From: Pelagibacteraceae bacterium AG-464-B04
GTDB lineage: Bacteria > Pseudomonadota > Alphaproteobacteria > Pelagibacterales > Pelagibacteraceae
Assembly (NCBI GenBank): GCA_003209225.1
Contig: QCRZ01000001.1
Coordinates: 1-64,000, forward strand
DNA length: 64,000 bases
Direction: 5' to 3'
A program made the position numbers and the translations under genes. Positions 29,605-64,000 of the stretch are shown in pieces. The notes below the pieces were generated by a model. It was not told where the DNA came from. It did no database searches and saw only the letters and a list, made by a program, of their open reading frames with translations. The first letter of the stretch is position 1. Each line of letters opens with the position of its first letter.

Positions 29605-30426
29605 ATGATCAAACAGGCGATTATACCTCTTGCTGGACTAGGGACAAGGCTATTACCTCTTACAAGTGTAATTCCAAAGGAACTCTTGCCCATAAATGGT
29701 AGACCTGGTTTGGAGTATATTTTAGACGAAGGAATAAAAGCTGGAATTAAAGAATTTATTTTTATTATTTCAAATAAAAAAAAGGGTATTAAGAATTATT
29801 TTTATAATGATTTGTTTTATAAAAAAATAATTAAAAAAAAAAATAAAGATAAAAGGTTAAAACAAGAATATTTAAAAATTAAAAAATATAAAAAAATGAT
29901 AAAGTTTGTTTATCAAAATAAACCAAATGGCACGGGTGATGCAGTTTTAAAGTGTAAAAATTATATTAAAACTAAATTTTTTTTAATGTTATTGCCTGAT
30001 GATTTAATAATGCAAGAAAATTGTTCTTTGTCTATGATAAGGCAACATAAAAAATTTCGTTCATCAGTGATAGCTTCAAGAAAAGTTAAAAAAAAAGATG
30101 TTTCAAGATGGGGAATTTTTAAATTAAAAAAAATAAATAAAAAAAGTTTTCTTATTGATGATGTTATAGAAAAGCCAAGCGTTTTAAATGCTCCATCGCA
30201 ACAATCAGTTATTGGGAGATATATTCTTCCAAAAAAAATATTTAAAGTCCTTGAACATCAAAAAGCTGGACAAAATGGTGAAGTGCATATTACTGACGCG
30301 ATTAGAACGCTCGTTAAAAAAAATGAAAAATTTACAGGATATATTTTCTCTGGAAAATATTTAGATTGCGGTACTATGAAAGGTTATATAAATTCATCAA
30401 AAAAAATTTCAAGTTATAATTTATGA
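29605..30426 (+). CDS. galU: UTP-glucose-1-phosphate uridylyltransferase
   Basis: IPLAGLGTRLLPLTSVIPKELLPI; adjacent to ugd. Confidence 0.88.
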   Translation: MIKQAIIPLAGLGTRLLPLTSVIPKELLPINGRPGLEYILDEGIKAGIKEFIFIISNKKKGIKNYFYNDLFYKKIIKKKNKDKRLKQEYLKIKKYKKMIKFVYQNKPNGTGDAVLKCKNYIKTKFFLMLLPDDLIMQENCSLSMIRQHKKFRSSVIASRKVKKKDVSRWGIFKLKKINKKSFLIDDVIEKPSVLNAPSQQSVIGRYILPKKIFKVLEHQKAGQNGEVHITDAIRTLVKKNEKFTGYIFSGKYLDCGTMKGYINSSKKISSYNL

Positions 30427-31721
30427 AAATTTGTGTCATTGGGAGTGGTTATGTCGGCCTAGTTACTGGAGTTTGTTTTGCAGATCTTGGTAACAAAGTA
30501 TATTGTGTAGATAATGATATCAAAAAAATCAAAAATTTAAATAGTGGTTATATTCCTATTTTTGAACCGGGATTAGATGAGTTACTTAAAAGAAATTTTA
30601 TTTCTAAAAGAATATTATTTACAACCAATTTAAAAAAAGCAGTTTTAAGCTCAGACATATTGTTTATTTGCGTTGGAACTCCAATAACAAAAAAAGGTGA
30701 TGCGGCAAATTTAAACTACGTTTTTCAAGTGGCAAGAAGTATTAGAAAGTTTATTAATAAATTTAAAGTCATTGTAACTAAATCTACTGTTCCAGTCACA
30801 ACGGGCGATAGAATTGAAAAAATTATTAATTTAAAAGCTAAAAAAAAAAATTTTGAAGTCGTCTCTAATCCCGAGTTTTTAAGAGAAGGAGAGGCTATTC
30901 GTGATTTCAGATATCCTGATAGAATTGTTGTTGGAACAAATAATAAAAAAGTTATTAAAATATTAGAAAATCTTTATGCCCCCATTATAAACAAAGGAGC
31001 TAAATATTTTACTACATCTAGAAGAGGGGCAGAACTAATTAAATATGCATCAAATGCATTTTTAGCTACTAAAATTTCTTATATTAACGAATTGGCAAAT
31101 TTATGTGAAAAAATTAAAGTTGATATAACTGATGTTTCTGTAGGAATGGGTCTAGATAAAAGAATTGGAAGTAGATTTTTAAGAGCCGGCCCAGCTTTTG
31201 GAGGATCTTGTTTTCCGAAAGATAGTAGAGCTCTTTTAGATACTGGAAAAAAATTTAAAACAGAATTTTCAATAGTTAAATCCGCAGTTGAATCTAATGA
31301 AAAAAGAAGAGTTTTATTAACAAAAAGAATTCAAGAAATTATGTCTAAAAAGTTTAAAAATAAAATAATTACCTTTTTAGGTGTTACATTTAAACCTAAT
31401 ACTGATGATATGCGTGAATCTACAAGCTTAACTTTAATACCTTATTTTTTAAAAAAAGGAGCAATAATTCGTTATTATGATCCCTCAGGGAAAAAAGATA
31501 TTTTTAATAAGTACAAAAAAGTTTTTTATTATTCAAACATATCTGACGTCTGTTTAAAAAGCGATTTAATTGTAATTCACACTGAATGGAATGAATTTAA
31601 ATCTATAGAGTTTAGAAAAATAGTAAAAAAAAAAAATTTTAAGATATTTGATATGAGAGGTCTTTATTCTCAAAATTTAATGAAAAAAGAAAAAATAAAT
31701 TATTATTGCATCGGAAAATAA
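30423..31721 (+). CDS. ugd: UDP-glucose 6-dehydrogenase (canonical catalytic Cys present)
   Basis: GSGYVGLVTGVCFADLG; AFGGSCFPKDSRAL. Confidence 0.93.
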   Translation: MKICVIGSGYVGLVTGVCFADLGNKVYCVDNDIKKIKNLNSGYIPIFEPGLDELLKRNFISKRILFTTNLKKAVLSSDILFICVGTPITKKGDAANLNYVFQVARSIRKFINKFKVIVTKSTVPVTTGDRIEKIINLKAKKKNFEVVSNPEFLREGEAIRDFRYPDRIVVGTNNKKVIKILENLYAPIINKGAKYFTTSRRGAELIKYASNAFLATKISYINELANLCEKIKVDITDVSVGMGLDKRIGSRFLRAGPAFGGSCFPKDSRALLDTGKKFKTEFSIVKSAVESNEKRRVLLTKRIQEIMSKKFKNKIITFLGVTFKPNTDDMRESTSLTLIPYFLKKGAIIRYYDPSGKKDIFNKYKKVFYYSNISDVCLKSDLIVIHTEWNEFKSIEFRKIVKKKNFKIFDMRGLYSQNLMKKEKINYYCIGK

Positions 31722-54426: not shown

Positions 54427-55455
54427 ATGTTTAAAATAGGAAATAGAAAAATTGGAAATAAATATAAGCCATTAATTATTTGTGAACTTGGAATTAACCA
54501 TTTTGGCAATTTATCAATTGCAAAAAAAATGGTTGATCTAGCTTACAAAAATGGTGCCGAAGCTATTAAAAACCAAACACATATCTTAAACGCTGAAATG
54601 ATAGATAAAGCAAAAGAAGTCATACCCCCAAATTCAAATAAATCAATTTTTGAAGTTATTAAAGAAAATCATATGTCTTTTGAAAATGAAATTAAATTAA
54701 AAAAATATGTTGAAAAAAAAAAATTGATATATTTGAGTACTCCTTTTTCAAGAGAAGCAGCTCACAAATTATACAAATTAGGAGTAAAATTATTTAAAAT
54801 TGGATCAGGTGAATGTAATAATTTACCTTTAATTGAAGAAATTTGTAAATTTAAAAAACCAATAATTATGAGTACAGGAATGAACGATCTTAAATCCATT
54901 AAAGAAAGCGTTAAAATAATTGAAAAATATAAAATTAACTATGCTCTTTTGCATTGCGTCAGCGAGTACCCAGTAAATTATAAAAATATTAAACTTGATT
55001 ACATTCAAACTTTAAAAAAAAACTTTCCACGTGCAATAGTGGGTTATTCAGACCATTCAATAGGAATAACACCTTGCATTGCTGCAATGGCAAAAGGAGC
55101 ATGTATTATTGAAAAACATTTTACTGATAATAAAAAAAGAAAAGGTCCTGATATAATATGTTCTATGGACCCATTAGAACTATCTGCTTTAAAAAAATGC
55201 TCTGAGATAATTTTTTTATCTAATGGATCCAAAAAAAAAATAACTATCACAGAAAAAAAAACCTCAAATTTTGCATTTTCTTCAGTAGTCTCAATAAAAA
55301 ATATCCTTAAAAATGAAAAATTATCAAATAAAAATGTTTGGATTAAGAGGCCTGGTACAGGAGATTTTCCAGCAAAGGATTATAAAAAACTATTAGGTAA
55401 AAAGGCTAAAAAATTTATATTTAAAAATAAATTTATTAAGAAAAAAGATGTCTAA
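54427..55455 (+). CDS. neuB: N-acetylneuraminate (sialic acid) synthase family, NeuB
   Basis: CELGINHFGNLSIAK, STPFSREAA, IGSGECNNLPLI, GPDIICSM, C-terminal SAF-like KRPGTGDFPAKDY. Confidence 0.9.
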   Translation: MFKIGNRKIGNKYKPLIICELGINHFGNLSIAKKMVDLAYKNGAEAIKNQTHILNAEMIDKAKEVIPPNSNKSIFEVIKENHMSFENEIKLKKYVEKKKLIYLSTPFSREAAHKLYKLGVKLFKIGSGECNNLPLIEEICKFKKPIIMSTGMNDLKSIKESVKIIEKYKINYALLHCVSEYPVNYKNIKLDYIQTLKKNFPRAIVGYSDHSIGITPCIAAMAKGACIIEKHFTDNKKRKGPDIICSMDPLELSALKKCSEIIFLSNGSKKKITITEKKTSNFAFSSVVSIKNILKNEKLSNKNVWIKRPGTGDFPAKDYKKLLGKKAKKFIFKNKFIKKKDV

Positions 55456-56581
55456 ACAAAACAAAAAAAAGATTTTGTTTTTAACTGGTTCCAGGGCCGA
55501 TTACGGAAAAATGAAATCTTTAATCATCGAAACCAAAAAAAGTAAAAAATTTCAACCATTAATTGCTGTTACCGGTATGCATTTACAAAAAATTCATGGA
55601 TATACTTTTAATGAAATTAAAAATGATTTTAAAGATATTAAAATTTATAAATTTTTTAATCAAAGTTATAAAGATTCAATGGATATTATTTTATCCAAAA
55701 CCATCACTCTTTTTAATAAAACTTTAAAATCAATTAAACCTGATTTAGTTGTTATCCATGGGGATAGATCGGAAACATTAGCAGCATCTATTCATTGCAA
55801 TCTTAACAATATATTAATAGCACATATAGAGGGTGGTGAAGTCTCTGGAACGGTTGACGAATCTATTAGGCATGCAACAACTAAACTTTCGCATATACAT
55901 TTTGTTTCTAATAAAAAAGCTAAAAATGTTTTAATTAAAATGGGTGAGATTAAGAAAAACATTTATATAATTGGTTCACCTGAAGTTGATATAATGATAA
56001 AAAAAGATCTCCCTTCTTTTGAAAACTTAATGTTAAGATATAATTTAAAATTTAATGAATATGGAATTTTTCTATTCCACCCAGTGACAACTTTAAAAAA
56101 AAAGGAAGTCATTAAGCAATGCCAAATTCTATTTAATGTTTTGAAAAAATCTTTAAAAAATTACGTAATTATTTACCCAAACAATGACACTTTTTCTGAT
56201 ATAATTTTTAAATATATTAAAAAACTCAAATTTTCTACCAGGTTTAAAATCCTTCCGAGCCTAAGATTCGAATATTATCTCACTTTATTAAAAAATTCTG
56301 AATTTATAATTGGAAACTCAAGCTCAGGAATAAGAGAAGCTCCAATTTATGGAATTAAAACAATTAACTTAGGAAATAGACAAAAAAACAGGTCAGGCAA
56401 CAAATTTATCTTTAATTTAAAATTTAAAGAATCTCAACTTTTAAAAAAAATTAAATATATAAAAAAAGAAAAAAATAAAAAATTTTTTGGTTTTGGAAGA
56501 GGTGATTCTGCAAAAAAATTTATTAAAACTTTAAACAAAGAAATTTTCTGGAAAACAGATAAACAGAAGTATTTTTCGTAA
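55448..56581 (+). CDS. neuC: UDP-N-acetylglucosamine 2-epimerase (hydrolysing), NeuC type
   Basis: LTGSRADYGKMKSL; HGDRSETLAA; HIEGGEVSGTVDESIRHA. Confidence 0.9.
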   Translation: MSKQNKKKILFLTGSRADYGKMKSLIIETKKSKKFQPLIAVTGMHLQKIHGYTFNEIKNDFKDIKIYKFFNQSYKDSMDIILSKTITLFNKTLKSIKPDLVVIHGDRSETLAASIHCNLNNILIAHIEGGEVSGTVDESIRHATTKLSHIHFVSNKKAKNVLIKMGEIKKNIYIIGSPEVDIMIKKDLPSFENLMLRYNLKFNEYGIFLFHPVTTLKKKEVIKQCQILFNVLKKSLKNYVIIYPNNDTFSDIIFKYIKKLKFSTRFKILPSLRFEYYLTLLKNSEFIIGNSSSGIREAPIYGIKTINLGNRQKNRSGNKFIFNLKFKESQLLKKIKYIKKEKNKKFFGFGRGDSAKKFIKTLNKEIFWKTDKQKYFS

Positions 56582-58548: not shown

Positions 58549-60093
58549 TTAAACAAAACCCTTAACAAGCGCTTTAAAGCCTTTAAAATATCTTTTTATA
58601 TCTTCTAGACTTCTTATATTGAGGATTGCTTTCATTATGTATCTAGGTCTCATGTAAAATGTTTTAAAAGCTTTACGACTCATTTTTAATACTTCTTCTT
58701 TATTCTTATATCCCTCAGGCAAAAATACCACATTCCATCCTTGATATTCGGTAAAATCATTGGTTGTAAGTTTTCCCCACTTGCCTTTTTTAATTTCATC
58801 ATACAAAGCAGTTCCAGGATAAGGTGTAGCAACACTGAATTGAGCATATTCTGGATCTAATCTTAAAGCATCTTTAATGGTTTGTTCTGCTAGTTCAGGA
58901 GTTTCTCCTGGCAGTGCAATCATAAAAGATCCTCTTACTTCAATACCAGCTTTTTTAGTCCATTTAGCTACTTCCATCATATGTTCCATTGATTTATTTT
59001 TTCTATTAGTTTTTATGTTTTCGGCTAATTGTTGAACACCAGTTTCGTAACCATAGAAAATATTCCAACAACCAGCTTTTTTCATTAAATATAATATTTC
59101 TTGATTAACAGTGTTAACAGCAGCGTAGCATGACCATATAACATCGAGATTAGCTTCTATGAGTAGAGTGCAAAATTCCTTCATCCATTTTTTGTGATAA
59201 CTCATTGTGTCATCCCAAAAGGAAATTTCTTTTACTCCGTATTTTTTAACCACATCTTTTATCTCTTCCACAACTTTTTGAGGACTTCTTCTTCGAGCAG
59301 TAGTAGCTGCTTGATCACAAAATGTGCAAACATATGGGCAACCTCTAATAACAACCATATTTGTCATTGGTAATTTTTTGTATTGATTTGGTAACGGAAC
59401 ATATCTTTCCATAGGAAACAATTCCCTTGCTGGTAAAGGTAAAAAATCTAAGTCTTTGATAATTTCTCCTGGTAAATTTTTTATAATTTCATCATGATTC
59501 CTAAAAATAATTCCTTTAATACTTTTCATTAATTCTAGGTTTTTTAAAAATTTTTCACGATTAAAATCACTTTCCGAAAACTTTTTAAGAATATCATGAA
59601 TTACAGTTTCACCTTCGGGATGATAAGAGACTATATCAATTGGTTTAATGTTTTTTGCCGCATCTGTACCCGCAACATTTGCATGTGCACCTCCCAATAT
59701 AATTAACAAATTAGGAAATTCTTTTCGCAATCTTTCAGCTAACGTTGTTGATGCTGGTAGAGCATAAGTTGTTGCTGAAATTCCGATAGATCTTGGTTTT
59801 TTTTTTCTCACAATTTCAACAATCTCATCATGACTTAATTCGAGAGCTATACAATCTAAAGCGGCTATTCCAAAACCAAATTTTCTTAAATATGCAGCTA
59901 ATGACGCTATACCAAGTGGAATTAAATCTCCTTTTAAATCACCCAAATCTTTTTTACCATATCTGTGAGCATAATTTATTCCTATTGATGTTGGAGGAAA
60001 TAAAAGCATTATATCAATAGCCTCATTTTTAGGTTCAAAAGCTCTATCTATAAGATCATTCCGAGAAACTTTTTTTTTGGCTTTATAAAACAT
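58549..60093 (-). CDS. Cobalamin-binding-domain type radical SAM protein
   Basis: N-terminal PPTS...PLGIASLAAYLRK, GGAHAN; CPYVCTFC radical SAM motif. Confidence 0.88.
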   Translation of the reverse strand: MFYKAKKKVSRNDLIDRAFEPKNEAIDIMLLFPPTSIGINYAHRYGKKDLGDLKGDLIPLGIASLAAYLRKFGFGIAALDCIALELSHDEIVEIVRKKKPRSIGISATTYALPASTTLAERLRKEFPNLLIILGGAHANVAGTDAAKNIKPIDIVSYHPEGETVIHDILKKFSESDFNREKFLKNLELMKSIKGIIFRNHDEIIKNLPGEIIKDLDFLPLPARELFPMERYVPLPNQYKKLPMTNMVVIRGCPYVCTFCDQAATTARRRSPQKVVEEIKDVVKKYGVKEISFWDDTMSYHKKWMKEFCTLLIEANLDVIWSCYAAVNTVNQEILYLMKKAGCWNIFYGYETGVQQLAENIKTNRKNKSMEHMMEVAKWTKKAGIEVRGSFMIALPGETPELAEQTIKDALRLDPEYAQFSVATPYPGTALYDEIKKGKWGKLTTNDFTEYQGWNVVFLPEGYKNKEEVLKMSRKAFKTFYMRPRYIMKAILNIRSLEDIKRYFKGFKALVKGFV

Positions 60094-60264: not shown

Positions 60265-61200
60265 ATGACAAAAATATCAGTAGTAGTTCCTGTCCGTAAC
60301 GAAAATGAGAATATTAAACCATTCTTAAAAAGAACTGAGCTTATTTTGAGCAAAATAGGCAAAGAATATGAAATTATTTTTGCTTTAGATCCCTCAACTG
60401 ACGGTACAGAAGAAATTATACTAGAGGAAATTAAAAGAAATAAAAGCATTAAACTTATGGTTTTTTCAAGAAGATTTGGACAACCTGCAGCAACAATTGC
60501 TGGGATAGTTAATTGTACAGGCTCATACTGCGTAATTATAGATGTTGATTTGCAAGATCCTCCAGAAATAATTGAACAATTACATAAAAAAATTATTACT
60601 GGATACGAAGTTGTTTACGCTAAAAGAGTTACAAGAAAAGGTGAAACTTTAGTTAAAAAAATAATCTCTTCCATAGGTTACTATTTAATTAATAAACTGA
60701 GCGATGTCAGTATCCCAAAAGATGCTGGAGATTATAGAATAATTTCTAGAAGAGTAATTGACCATTTAAAAAATTTAAATGAAAGTCATGGTTTTCTCAG
60801 AGGCATGATTGCTTTTGTTGGATTTAAACAATCTTTTATAGAATATGATCGTGTTGAAAGATTTGCAGGAAAAAGTAAATATAATAAATTTCTAGGATCT
60901 TTGAAAATAGGTTTCAATGGACTGGTTGGGTTTAGTTCTCGACCATTGTTTTTTATGTCAGTTGTGGGTTTTGTCATTGCTTTTTTAAGTTTTGTTTTAG
61001 GAATCTGGTACTTTTTTCAAAAAATTTTAGGAATAAATTTAACATTAGGGCTAACCACCACGGTTATACTGATTAGTTTTTTTGCTGGTGTCCAACTATT
61101 AGGATTGGGTTTGTTGGGAGAGTATGTTGGTCGCATATATGATGAAGTTAAAAAAAGGCCACAATTTATAGTAGATAAAAAAGTTAATTTTGATGATTAA
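60265..61200 (+). CDS. Polyprenyl-phosphate-linked GT2 glycosyltransferase (DPM1/ArnC-like)
   Basis: ISVVVPVRNENENI; DVDLQDPPE; two C-terminal TMs. Confidence 0.9.
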   Translation: MTKISVVVPVRNENENIKPFLKRTELILSKIGKEYEIIFALDPSTDGTEEIILEEIKRNKSIKLMVFSRRFGQPAATIAGIVNCTGSYCVIIDVDLQDPPEIIEQLHKKIITGYEVVYAKRVTRKGETLVKKIISSIGYYLINKLSDVSIPKDAGDYRIISRRVIDHLKNLNESHGFLRGMIAFVGFKQSFIEYDRVERFAGKSKYNKFLGSLKIGFNGLVGFSSRPLFFMSVVGFVIAFLSFVLGIWYFFQKILGINLTLGLTTTVILISFFAGVQLLGLGLLGEYVGRIYDEVKKRPQFIVDKKVNFDD

Positions 61201-61921
61201 TAAGAATATAAATAAACAAGATCTTTTTCCAAAGGAAGTTCCAAAACTAACAGAAAAACAAAAAATTATTAAAGATAATTTTATGGAATATTGGCTTAAA
61301 GTTTTAAGAAAAAATTACGGTATTGTAGATAGATTTAATCATGGCATTGTAGCAAAAAACAAACCAAACAATTTTCTTAAAACTTTAGAAATAGGAGCGG
61401 GTATAGGTGAGCATTTAAATTATGAAAAATTGTCAGATAATCAAAAAAAGAATTATTTTGCAATGGATAAGAGAGAAAATTTATTAAAGATTATTTCTGA
61501 AGAGCATCCATTTGTGCAAACAGTTTTAGGTGACTGCGAAAAGAAGTTTAATTTTGAAAACAATACTTTTGACAGAGTTATTGCAATACATATTTTGGAA
61601 CATTTGCCAAATTTACCAAATACAATAAATGAAGTATCTAGAGTTTTAAAAAAAAATGGCCTTTTTCAAATCGTAATACCTTGTGAAGGAAGTTTAGCTT
61701 ATACAATTGCTAGAAAAATCTCAGCTGAAAGAATTTTTAAAAAGAAATATAAAACAAATTATGATTGGTTTATAAAAAGTGAACATCTAAATTTACCACA
61801 TGAAATTATTAATGAGTTGAAAAAAAAATTTTTAATAATTAAAAAAAATTATTTCCCAATTCCCCTATCATTTGAATTCTGCAATCTTTGTATTTCAATA
61901 AATTTAAAATTATTAACTTAA
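61190..61921 (+). CDS. Class I SAM-dependent methyltransferase
   Basis: LEIGAGIGEHL; FDRVIAIHILEHLPNLPNTINEVSRVLKKNG. Confidence 0.85.
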   Translation: MMINKNINKQDLFPKEVPKLTEKQKIIKDNFMEYWLKVLRKNYGIVDRFNHGIVAKNKPNNFLKTLEIGAGIGEHLNYEKLSDNQKKNYFAMDKRENLLKIISEEHPFVQTVLGDCEKKFNFENNTFDRVIAIHILEHLPNLPNTINEVSRVLKKNGLFQIVIPCEGSLAYTIARKISAERIFKKKYKTNYDWFIKSEHLNLPHEIINELKKKFLIIKKNYFPIPLSFEFCNLCISINLKLLT

Positions 61922-62913
61922 TTACTGGCCAAATATTGATCTCAAATATTAATAAAAAAAAAATTATTGTAACTGGTTGTGCTGGTTTTATAGGTAGCCA
62001 TTTGGTTGATAAATTGCTTGCTATTAATCTTCATGTTATTGGTATTGACAATTATAGCACTGGAAACAAAAAATTTTTAAATAAGGCTTTCAAAAATAAT
62101 AAATTTAAATTTTTTAAGTCAGATTTAAAAAATTTAGTTAAACTTAAAAAAATATTTAAGGGTTCGAGTATGGTTTTCCATTTTTCTGCAAACGCAGATG
62201 TTAGATTTGGAATCAAGCACCCTCGAAAAGACTTAGAAGAAAACACAATAGTTACATATAATGTGTTAGAGGCAATGAGAAAAAATAGGATTAGCAAGAT
62301 TGTTTTTTGTTCAACAGGATCTGTTTATGGTGAACCAAATAAATTTCCTACTCCTGAAAATTATTCATTTCCAATACAAACTTCTTTTTATGCAGCTTCA
62401 AAATTAGCAGGAGAGTCTCTTATCCAAGCTTATTGTGAAGCCTATGGTTTTAAAACATGGATTTTTCGTTTTGTTTCTATTCTAGGGAATAGATATTCAC
62501 ATGGACACGTTTATGATTTTTATAAGCAATTAATGAAACACCCAAATTATCTAAATTGTTTAGGTGATGGTAATCAAAGAAAATCGTACCTTAATGTTAA
62601 TGATTGTATTAACGCAATTATCTTAGCTATTAAAAGAAGTAAAAAAAAAGTTAATATTTTTAACATTGGAACTAATGAATATGTCAATGTGAAACAATCA
62701 ATTAATGTGATTTGCAAATATTTAAAATTGAAACCAAAAATTATATTTACTGGAGGTAAAAGAGGTTGGGTTGGAGATAGTCCGTTTATTTTTTTAAGTA
62801 CAAAAAAAATAAGATTATTGGGATGGAAACCAAAATTTACAATTAAAGAGAGTATAATACAAACTATTATTTATTTAAAAAATAATAAATGGATTTTTAA
62901 AAAAAGAAAATGA
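61888..62913 (+). CDS. NAD-dependent epimerase/dehydratase (SDR); true start may be further downstream
   Basis: VTGCAGFIGSHLVDKLL; YAASK catalytic motif. Confidence 0.87.
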   Translation: MYFNKFKIINLITGQILISNINKKKIIVTGCAGFIGSHLVDKLLAINLHVIGIDNYSTGNKKFLNKAFKNNKFKFFKSDLKNLVKLKKIFKGSSMVFHFSANADVRFGIKHPRKDLEENTIVTYNVLEAMRKNRISKIVFCSTGSVYGEPNKFPTPENYSFPIQTSFYAASKLAGESLIQAYCEAYGFKTWIFRFVSILGNRYSHGHVYDFYKQLMKHPNYLNCLGDGNQRKSYLNVNDCINAIILAIKRSKKKVNIFNIGTNEYVNVKQSINVICKYLKLKPKIIFTGGKRGWVGDSPFIFLSTKKIRLLGWKPKFTIKESIIQTIIYLKNNKWIFKKRK

Positions 62914-64000
62914 TTATTTTTGTTCAAGGTCTATGGCATTGTGGTTCGGTAGTGTCTGCCTGCTTAGCTTCTTTAAACTTTGATGTTATCGCTTACGATG
63001 AAAATAAAAAATTAGTTAATAACTTAAAAAAAAATATTCCACCTATTTTTGAACCAAATTTAAAAAAACTTATTAAAAAATCAAATAAAAATGGTCAACT
63101 ATCATTTGTTAATAACTCAAAAAAAATAAATTTAGCAGATGTAATCTGGTTTACTTATGATACCCCTGTAGATGAATACGATCGTGCTAATAAAAAATAT
63201 GTTTTAGATAAAATTAAAAAAACTTTGAAAAAAGTTAATTCAGGTAAATTTATAATTATATCATCCCAATTACCAGTTGGTTCAATAAGAGTATTAGAAA
63301 TATTTGCAAAAAAAGAATTAAAAAAAAAATTTCATTTTTTTTGTTGTCCAGAAAATTTGAGGCTTGGTAAATCTATAAAATCTTTTCTAAACGCTGAAAG
63401 GATGATTGTAGGTTATAGAGATATTTCTTCTAGAAAAAAAATCAAAAATCTTTTTGAAATAATAACAGACAATATTGTGTGGATGAAAATAGAGTCTGCA
63501 GAAATTACTAAGCATGCAATAAATACATTCTTAGCAACATCAATTTCTTTTATTAATGAAATGTCCTTAATCTGCGAAAGTTTTGGAGCTGATGCTAAAG
63601 AAGTAGAGGAAGGTTTAAAATCAGAATCAAGAATTGGAAAAAAAGCTTTTTTATCACCCGGCGTTCCCTTTGGTGGTGGTACCTTAGGCAGAGATGTTAA
63701 TTATTTAAATGAAATTTCAGTTTCAAAAAATTTAAATACTAAACTTTTATCATCAATAAAGATCAGCAATGATAACCATAAACAATGGATTTATCGTCAC
63801 TTAAAAAATTTAATAATAAATAAAAAAATTAAAAAAGTGTCAATATGGGGCTTAACCTATACTGAAAACACTGATACTTTAAGAAGATCTTTTGCGATTG
63901 AAATCTCTAATTGGTTAATGAAATTTAATATTAAAATCATTGGTTTTGATAGTAATGTTAAAAAACTACCCACTCATGTAAGTAGAGTAGTTAAAAAAGT
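62910..64000 (+). CDS. UDP-glucose/GDP-mannose dehydrogenase family homologue lacking catalytic Cys (runs off window)
   Basis: MIIFVQGLWHCGSVVSACLASLNFDVIAYDE; ITKHAINTFLATSISFINE; GVPFGGGTLGRDVNYL in place of GGSCFPKD. Confidence 0.85.
   Translation, partial: MIIFVQGLWHCGSVVSACLASLNFDVIAYDENKKLVNNLKKNIPPIFEPNLKKLIKKSNKNGQLSFVNNSKKINLADVIWFTYDTPVDEYDRANKKYVLDKIKKTLKKVNSGKFIIISSQLPVGSIRVLEIFAKKELKKKFHFFCCPENLRLGKSIKSFLNAERMIVGYRDISSRKKIKNLFEIITDNIVWMKIESAEITKHAINTFLATSISFINEMSLICESFGADAKEVEEGLKSESRIGKKAFLSPGVPFGGGTLGRDVNYLNEISVSKNLNTKLLSSIKISNDNHKQWIYRHLKNLIINKKIKKVSIWGLTYTENTDTLRRSFAIEISNWLMKFNIKIIGFDSNVKKLPTHVSRVVKK

Follow-up and report, generated by a model that had tools for sequence, protein, structure and literature searches.

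A gene at the end of the window, i.e. the whole 64,000-nt stretch of DNA analysed, encodes a fusion of a protein of the UDP-glucose dehydrogenase (UGD) fold lacking the catalytic cysteine (UGDL) with a short-chain dehydrogenase (SDR) and is embedded in a conserved gene cassette. We regard it as an evenly balanced proposition that UGDL is an active, rewired UGD-fold enzyme and that a modified NDP-heptose destined for a surface polysaccharide is the product of the cassette, with oxidation at C6 followed by reduction by the SDR. Judged from sequence comparisons, UGDL itself most likely uses NAD+ for a two-electron oxidation of an NDP-heptose at C6, and its product is probably a keto-sugar rather than a sugar acid.

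The UGDL-SDR gene runs on the + strand from an ATG at position 62910 to a stop at 65102 (730 aa), coordinates above 64000 being contig coordinates that continue the window numbering. The window covers only codons 1-363 of the 730 (62910..64000), with the frame open at its end, and the rest was found on the same contig (G000:C1), which reaches position 73930. Retrieval of the full gene, as proposed in the original prediction, revealed that its second half is a complete SDR domain. A pseudogene or a frameshift at the window edge is ruled out by the frame, which is open to the stop at 65102, and by identical residue changes in homologues. In the fusion protein the UGDL domain comprises residues 1 to about 425, the linker residues about 429-438 and the SDR domain residues about 440-730. 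The UGDL domain belongs to the NDP-sugar dehydrogenase superfamily, as it matches TIGR03026 with 271.8 bits (cut-off 189.8, residues 2-405) and exceeds the cut-offs of PF03721, PF00984 and PF03720 (UDPG_MGDP_dh_N/M/C); adh_short (Pfam) matches residues 447-641, and residues 447-690 make up a complete SDR domain. An AlphaFold2 model, for which homologues of both halves were supplied, has a mean pLDDT of 91.7 and consists of two well-ordered units and a low-confidence joining stretch (429-438). Its closest solved structures are UGDs, with 3gg2 as the top PDB match (TMt 0.86-0.89). In the window gene, numbered as S. pyogenes UGD throughout, the motifs read GLWHCG (Gly9 replaced by Trp) and GGGTLGRD (Cys260 by Thr, Lys263 by Arg), with Lys204, Asn208 and Asp264 retained, and the canonical UDP-glucose dehydrogenase paralogue (30423-31721, + strand), which lies outside the cassette and serves for comparison only, has GSGYVG and GGSCFPKD. 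All these motifs, as well as the preserved Lys...Asn helix and the Asp following the Cys motif, had been described in the original prediction and are present as described; the SDR fusion, the UGDL family and the C7-sugar cassette are additional to it.

UGDL-SDR comes fourth in an operon-like series of + strand genes in which neighbouring genes are separated by short overlaps or gaps. It is preceded by a GT2 glycosyltransferase with a C-terminal membrane part (60265-61200), a class I methyltransferase (61190-61921) and an extended-SDR epimerase (EPI, 61888-62913), whose last 4 nt fall within the fusion gene and which contains the motifs STGSVYG and YxxSK without the Asp-Glu pair of 4,6-dehydratases. 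It is followed by a Gfo/Idh/MocA protein (GFO, 65087-66094), an HddA-like kinase (66078-67058), an HddC/MurU-like nucleotidyltransferase (67055-67762), a GmhA-like isomerase (67759-68361), a GmhB-like phosphatase (68370-68894) and a transaldolase (TAL, 68896-69612). The same glycan island carries a nonulosonic-acid set, i.e. genes for a NeuB-family synthase and, after it, a member of the UDP-GlcNAc 2-epimerase family (54427-56581). A 514-aa protein encoded on the - strand (58549-60093) resembles a radical SAM enzyme that carries a B12-type domain at its N terminus, the CxxxCxxC motif being recognized by eye; Radical_SAM and B12-binding domains occur in 4 and 3, respectively, of the 109 neighbours of UGDL loci that were scanned.

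This gene set is conserved. A contig scan with a four-sequence profile (A1) yielded 184 relatives, the best 80 of which were used; in these 80 loci the SDR is the next gene after UGDL in 76, EPI is the immediate upstream neighbour in 68 and a matching GT2 is found nearby in 22. Forty-five loci have enough flanking sequence (6 kb or more on the downstream and 1.5 kb or more on the upstream side), and among them the SDR is present in 45, GFO in 43, EPI and the HddA-like kinase in 42 each, the HddC-like transferase in 38, TAL in 35, the GmhA-like isomerase in 34 and the GmhB-like phosphatase in 33, the core set of EPI, SDR, GFO, HddA-, HddC- and GmhA-like proteins and TAL being complete in 32. 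At 20 canonical UGD loci (about 8 kb on each side) no cassette neighbours were detected, save weak EPI matches in 4. Other neighbours of UGDL are glycosyltransferases, O-antigen ligases and sugar transferases. One Acidobacteria locus (L061) carries the fusion in the opposite order, SDR-UGDL. The heptose core also exists without UGDL, SDR and GFO at one locus (L189), and partly so at another (L193), suggesting a core module to which a three-enzyme tailoring module is added; UGDL, SDR and GFO indeed look like such a tailoring unit. In an Elusimicrobiota cassette (L064, 1459-8308) UGDL and Gfo genes are adjacent and the 9-kb contig contains no SDR, a possible exception to the UGDL-SDR pairing.

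The partner enzymes have intact catalytic residues. The SDR has the features of a classical SDR, i.e. the catalytic Tyr and Lys (80/80 each) and the Gly residues of TGxxxGxG (79-80/80), and an Arg follows β2 in 80/80. The transaldolase Lys is found in 47/47 and the HAD, GHMP and Gfo motifs are intact. The metal ligands of GmhA have been named as H61, E65, Q175 and H183 (PMC5387315), and the corresponding positions of the GmhA-like protein hold H, D, E and H in 51-52 of 52 sequences, i.e. Asp stands for Glu65 and Glu for Gln175. By homology the heptose enzyme set of the cassette is complete, with intact catalytic residues. All core proteins score below their equivalog cut-offs (GmhA 50 of 209 bits, HddA 174 of 600, HddC 101 of 300, GmhB 124 of 178) and, therefore, the sugar may not be a glycero-manno-heptose. 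The evidence on the nucleotide is mixed, as the HddC-like protein scores slightly better against MurU (UTP) than against HddC (GTP), and UGDL has kept Leu211, the residue of UDP-glucose enzymes. The same genome has another GmhA-like gene elsewhere (G000:C8:30218-30661), which is the more canonical of the two (126 bits), and the GmhA-like gene of the cassette is therefore probably a dedicated one.

We infer the step of each enzyme from homology, and a C7 substrate from homology together with this linkage. The linkage also bears on the alternative that UGDL oxidises an ordinary NDP-hexose once at C6, delivering an NDP-hexodialdose (6-aldehyde) to the SDR or another partner, with the heptose genes feeding a separate sugar of the island. 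Aldehyde release from a hexose is what the missing covalent second half by itself would predict, Leu211 fits such a substrate, and at some UGDL loci, e.g. L062, heptose genes are absent from the available stretch. Nevertheless, the HddA-like kinase and the GmhA-like isomerase accompany UGDL at 42 and 34 of 45 loci as compared with 0 of 20 canonical UGD loci, and such close linkage across phyla speaks for a single pathway, so that we consider oxidation of a hexose unlikely, even if it ranks above the other alternatives discussed below.

UGDL constitutes a distinct family, and the 86 sequences collected represent at least 15 named phyla, Methanobacteriota among them. Its occurrence is sparse: in the phylum sample 2 of 399 genomes carry it, in the class sample 4 of 385 (the window genome being counted in both). 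In the window's own order, 3 of 147 genomes contain a close homologue, i.e. the window genome, G022, which has the same UGDL-SDR fusion (56% identity), and G047, in which UGDL and SDR are separate adjacent genes in the gene order of the window genome. UGDL is also carried by Methyloglobulus morosus and by the cultured Rhizobium jaguaris CCGE525 and Paraburkholderia dinghuensis, and at a Pelagibacteraceae locus (L008) UGDL and SDR form a standalone pair. Close homologues are also found on Rhizobium megaplasmids and on a Lawsonia intracellularis plasmid, where the annotated cassette lies nearby and no epimerase directly precedes UGDL. This plasmid locus (plasmid 3, L156) comprises UGDL, SDR, Gfo, kinase, nucleotidyltransferase, SIS, HAD and transaldolase genes, and an LPG-synthase-type membrane protein adjoins UGDL.

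The phylogenetic comparison with UGD, GMD and WbpA types that had been proposed places UGDL apart from all of them. In a quick IQ-TREE analysis of 78 sequences all UGDL proteins, the Lawsonia and Rhizobium plasmid copies included, form one group (SH-aLRT 100, stem 1.31), canonical UGDs form a separate group (SH-aLRT 94), other NDP-sugar dehydrogenase types fall elsewhere, and UGDL clusters neither with UGD nor with GMD or WbpA/WecC. As this quick method gave long-branch warnings among the other dehydrogenase types, we claim no exact sister group for UGDL. A viral origin was considered and rejected, annotated phage UGDs lying outside the clade with 21-30% identity, and a PHROGs search matched a generic UGD family alone. 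A few IMG/VR contigs carry UGDL. One of them, a marine contig classed as viral (L093, 1-13263), encodes HddC-, GmhB-, GmhA-, HddA- and transaldolase-like proteins together with UGDL, a different SDR, a Gfo protein and, amid the cassette, a GIY-YIG homing endonuclease.

The pattern of conserved and replaced residues argues for an active, rewired enzyme. Eighteen residues are invariant in 229 NDP-sugar dehydrogenases (PMC4794789), and 12 of these, namely Gly7, Gly12, Thr83, Pro140, Glu141, Glu201, Lys204, Asn208, Asn219, Gly258, Asp264 and Asn287, are strictly kept in 86/86 UGDL sequences. Asp29 is likewise found in 86/86 and Arg244 is retained. Uniform replacements (86/86 each) are Cys260 by Thr, Thr118 by Gln, Tyr10 by His, Lys263 by Arg, Phe142 by Asn and Glu145 by Leu or Ile. 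Gly9 is replaced by Trp in 85/86, although the Trp (GxW) and KH (TKH) positions were partly selected for, since the peptide patterns used in collecting the family included G[LM]W and [TS]KH; Thr (260), Gln (118), Leu (145) and Arg (263) are unaffected by this bias. The 21 canonical UGD controls have the standard residue at every one of the changed positions, including Cys260 in 21/21. More variable are Gly257 (lost in 82/86 and retained in the window gene), Ser117 (lost in 5/86) and Lys320, which is invariant elsewhere and lost in 8/86, including the window gene with Thr at this position. Among the 86 aligned sequences no Cys is invariant at a new position, and the Cys with the highest conservation (84/86), located in the long dimer helix, occurs in canonical UGD as well, so that an alternative active-site Cys, which the original prediction had named as evidence against altered chemistry, is rejected at the level of the alignment.

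These residues can be assigned to the two halves of the UGD cycle. In the first oxidation Asp264 acts as base and Lys204 and Asn208 provide electrostatics, and NAD+ is contacted by Asp29 and Thr83; the covalent second half involves Cys260 and Tyr10, the latter being reported to catalyse thioester hydrolysis, and Thr118 has been linked to the positioning of water and to NADH exchange (PMC4794789, PMC3184952). In the human enzyme the Gln mutant of Glu161, which corresponds to Glu141, traps the thiohemiacetal; as Glu141 is retained in 86/86 UGDL sequences, the second-half residues are not all lost. The notion of the original prediction that the enzyme performs different chemistry, e.g. a two-electron oxidation, fits well with invariant first-oxidation residues as against uniformly replaced second-half residues; its interpretation as a whole is supported in part. 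The sugar site is altered as well, as Phe142 to Asn and Glu145 to Leu show, and the conserved active-site frame points to C6 as the probable site of oxidation.

Alternatively, UGDL may act on another carbon of the NDP-heptose, i.e. the C7 primary alcohol or a ring hydroxyl, with the sugar bound in a shifted register. This would agree with the changes at Thr118 and at both specificity positions flanking the sugar (Phe142 and Glu145), but UGDL is a close fold match to UGD (TMt 0.86-0.89) and has kept the residues that position C6 in UGD (Arg244, Lys204, Asn208 and Asp264); we regard this as improbable, ranking it next after the oxidation of a hexose. Less probable again is a four-electron oxidation without Cys, in which a hydrated aldehyde or a Thr hemiacetal would be oxidised to an NDP-uronic (or hepturonic) acid. 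This would agree with the retention of Glu141 and Asp264 and with the human C276A variant, which still oxidises added aldehyde, but the same variant cannot complete turnover from UDP-glucose (PMC3184952). Of the features of a four-electron dehydrogenase UGDL has Asp264, Lys204 and Asn208 and lacks Cys260 in GGxC, and it also lacks Tyr10 and Thr118, each uniformly replaced; moreover, an NADPH-type SDR directly follows it in the cassette. Least probable of all is a pseudoenzyme, i.e. a non-catalytic scaffold or substrate-binding partner of the SDR, for although the nucleophile and the Rossmann Gly9 are lost and UGDL is fused to an intact SDR in two orders, Asp264, Lys204, Asn208, Thr83, Asp29, Gly7 and Gly12 do not vary among the 86 sequences, whose identity is otherwise about 40%, and every cassette partner has intact catalytic residues; the residue pattern and the conservation across at least 15 phyla likewise disfavour the non-catalytic role that the original prediction had offered as its other option.

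The fusion, the residue pattern, the clade and the conserved gene set can be read directly from the sequences, and the order of steps, the nucleotide and the product are putative throughout the following scheme for a two-electron oxidation at C6 of an NDP-heptose. The transaldolase and the GmhA-like isomerase would supply a heptose 7-phosphate, the HddA-like kinase, the GmhB-like phosphatase and the HddC-like transferase would form the NDP-heptose, and UGDL would remove one hydride (NAD+) from its C6. UGD needs its Cys because hexose C6, a primary alcohol, is oxidised via the aldehyde to the acid; C6 of a heptose is a secondary alcohol (carbinol). Because heptose C6 is secondary, oxidation would halt at the ketone and the Cys would not be needed: the thiohemiacetal/thioester half of the UGD cycle would be closed to the ketone, so that Cys260, Tyr10 and Thr118 would have become dispensable. 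A C6 ketone as end-point predicts that first-oxidation residues are frozen and covalent-step residues replaced, as is seen. An Arg after β2 in an SDR normally indicates NADPH and Asp29 in the UGD fold NAD+. An NAD+-type dehydrogenase tied to an NADPH-type reductase, and fused to it in two orders, predicts oxidation followed by reduction with net epimerisation or rearrangement, i.e. the fused SDR would reduce the ketone, giving a net inversion at C6 or completing a C5/C6 rearrangement, and GFO and EPI may adjust ring positions. Based on this scheme we speculate, with distinctly less confidence than we place in an active enzyme of NDP-heptose modification as such, that UGDL and SDR are an oxidise-then-reduce pair that reshapes C6 (perhaps C5) via a 6-keto NDP-heptose, yielding an undescribed heptose in surface glycans of at least 15 bacterial and archaeal phyla.

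The current annotation 'nucleotide sugar dehydrogenase' implies uronic acid synthesis and is probably wrong for the UGDL clade, which constitutes a natural test of the role of the UGD cysteine. From the widespread cassette an unknown sugar is predicted for numerous environmental lineages, among them Legionella, Lawsonia and relatives of the Pelagibacteraceae. Searches of the open-licence literature turned up neither the cassette nor a UGD clade devoid of Cys, and an earlier description in subscription journals is possible. A link to bradyrhizose was dropped, as the account of its eleven-gene cluster mentions just sugar-modification genes, a dehydratase among them (PMC4743980), which lends no support.

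UGDL resembles the UGD/GMD/UDP-ManNAc dehydrogenase family (TIGR03026; PMC4794789) in its three-domain fold, in 12 of 18 invariant residues, in Asp29 and in the first-oxidation residues. It differs in lacking Cys260, Thr118 and Tyr10, in having Trp for Gly9, Asn142 and Leu/Ile145, and in its separate clade, its other gene neighbourhood and, in some genomes, its fusion to an SDR. The SDR in turn shares TGxxxGxG, NNAG, Ser-Tyr-Lys and the NADPH-type Arg after β2 with classical FabG-type SDRs, but forms a subfamily of its own with a C-terminal tail and stands beside or is fused to UGDL; a sequence search for a close solved relative found none, the best match scoring 99 bits. With the GDP-D-glycero-D-manno-heptose pathway (GmhA, HddA, GmhB, HddC) the cassette has four homologous activating enzymes in common. 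For the tailoring of GDP-heptose in C. jejuni, the abstract of PMC10680097 names a C4-dehydrogenase, dehydratases, epimerases and C4-reductases and no C6-dehydrogenase. The cassette is unlike the C. jejuni system in its UGD-fold protein, classical SDR, Gfo/Idh/MocA protein and dedicated transaldolase and in core proteins below the equivalog cut-offs, but the use of dehydrogenases, epimerases and reductases to diversify one NDP-heptose is alike; C. jejuni heptose tailoring is the nearest worked-out logic for the pathway proposed here.
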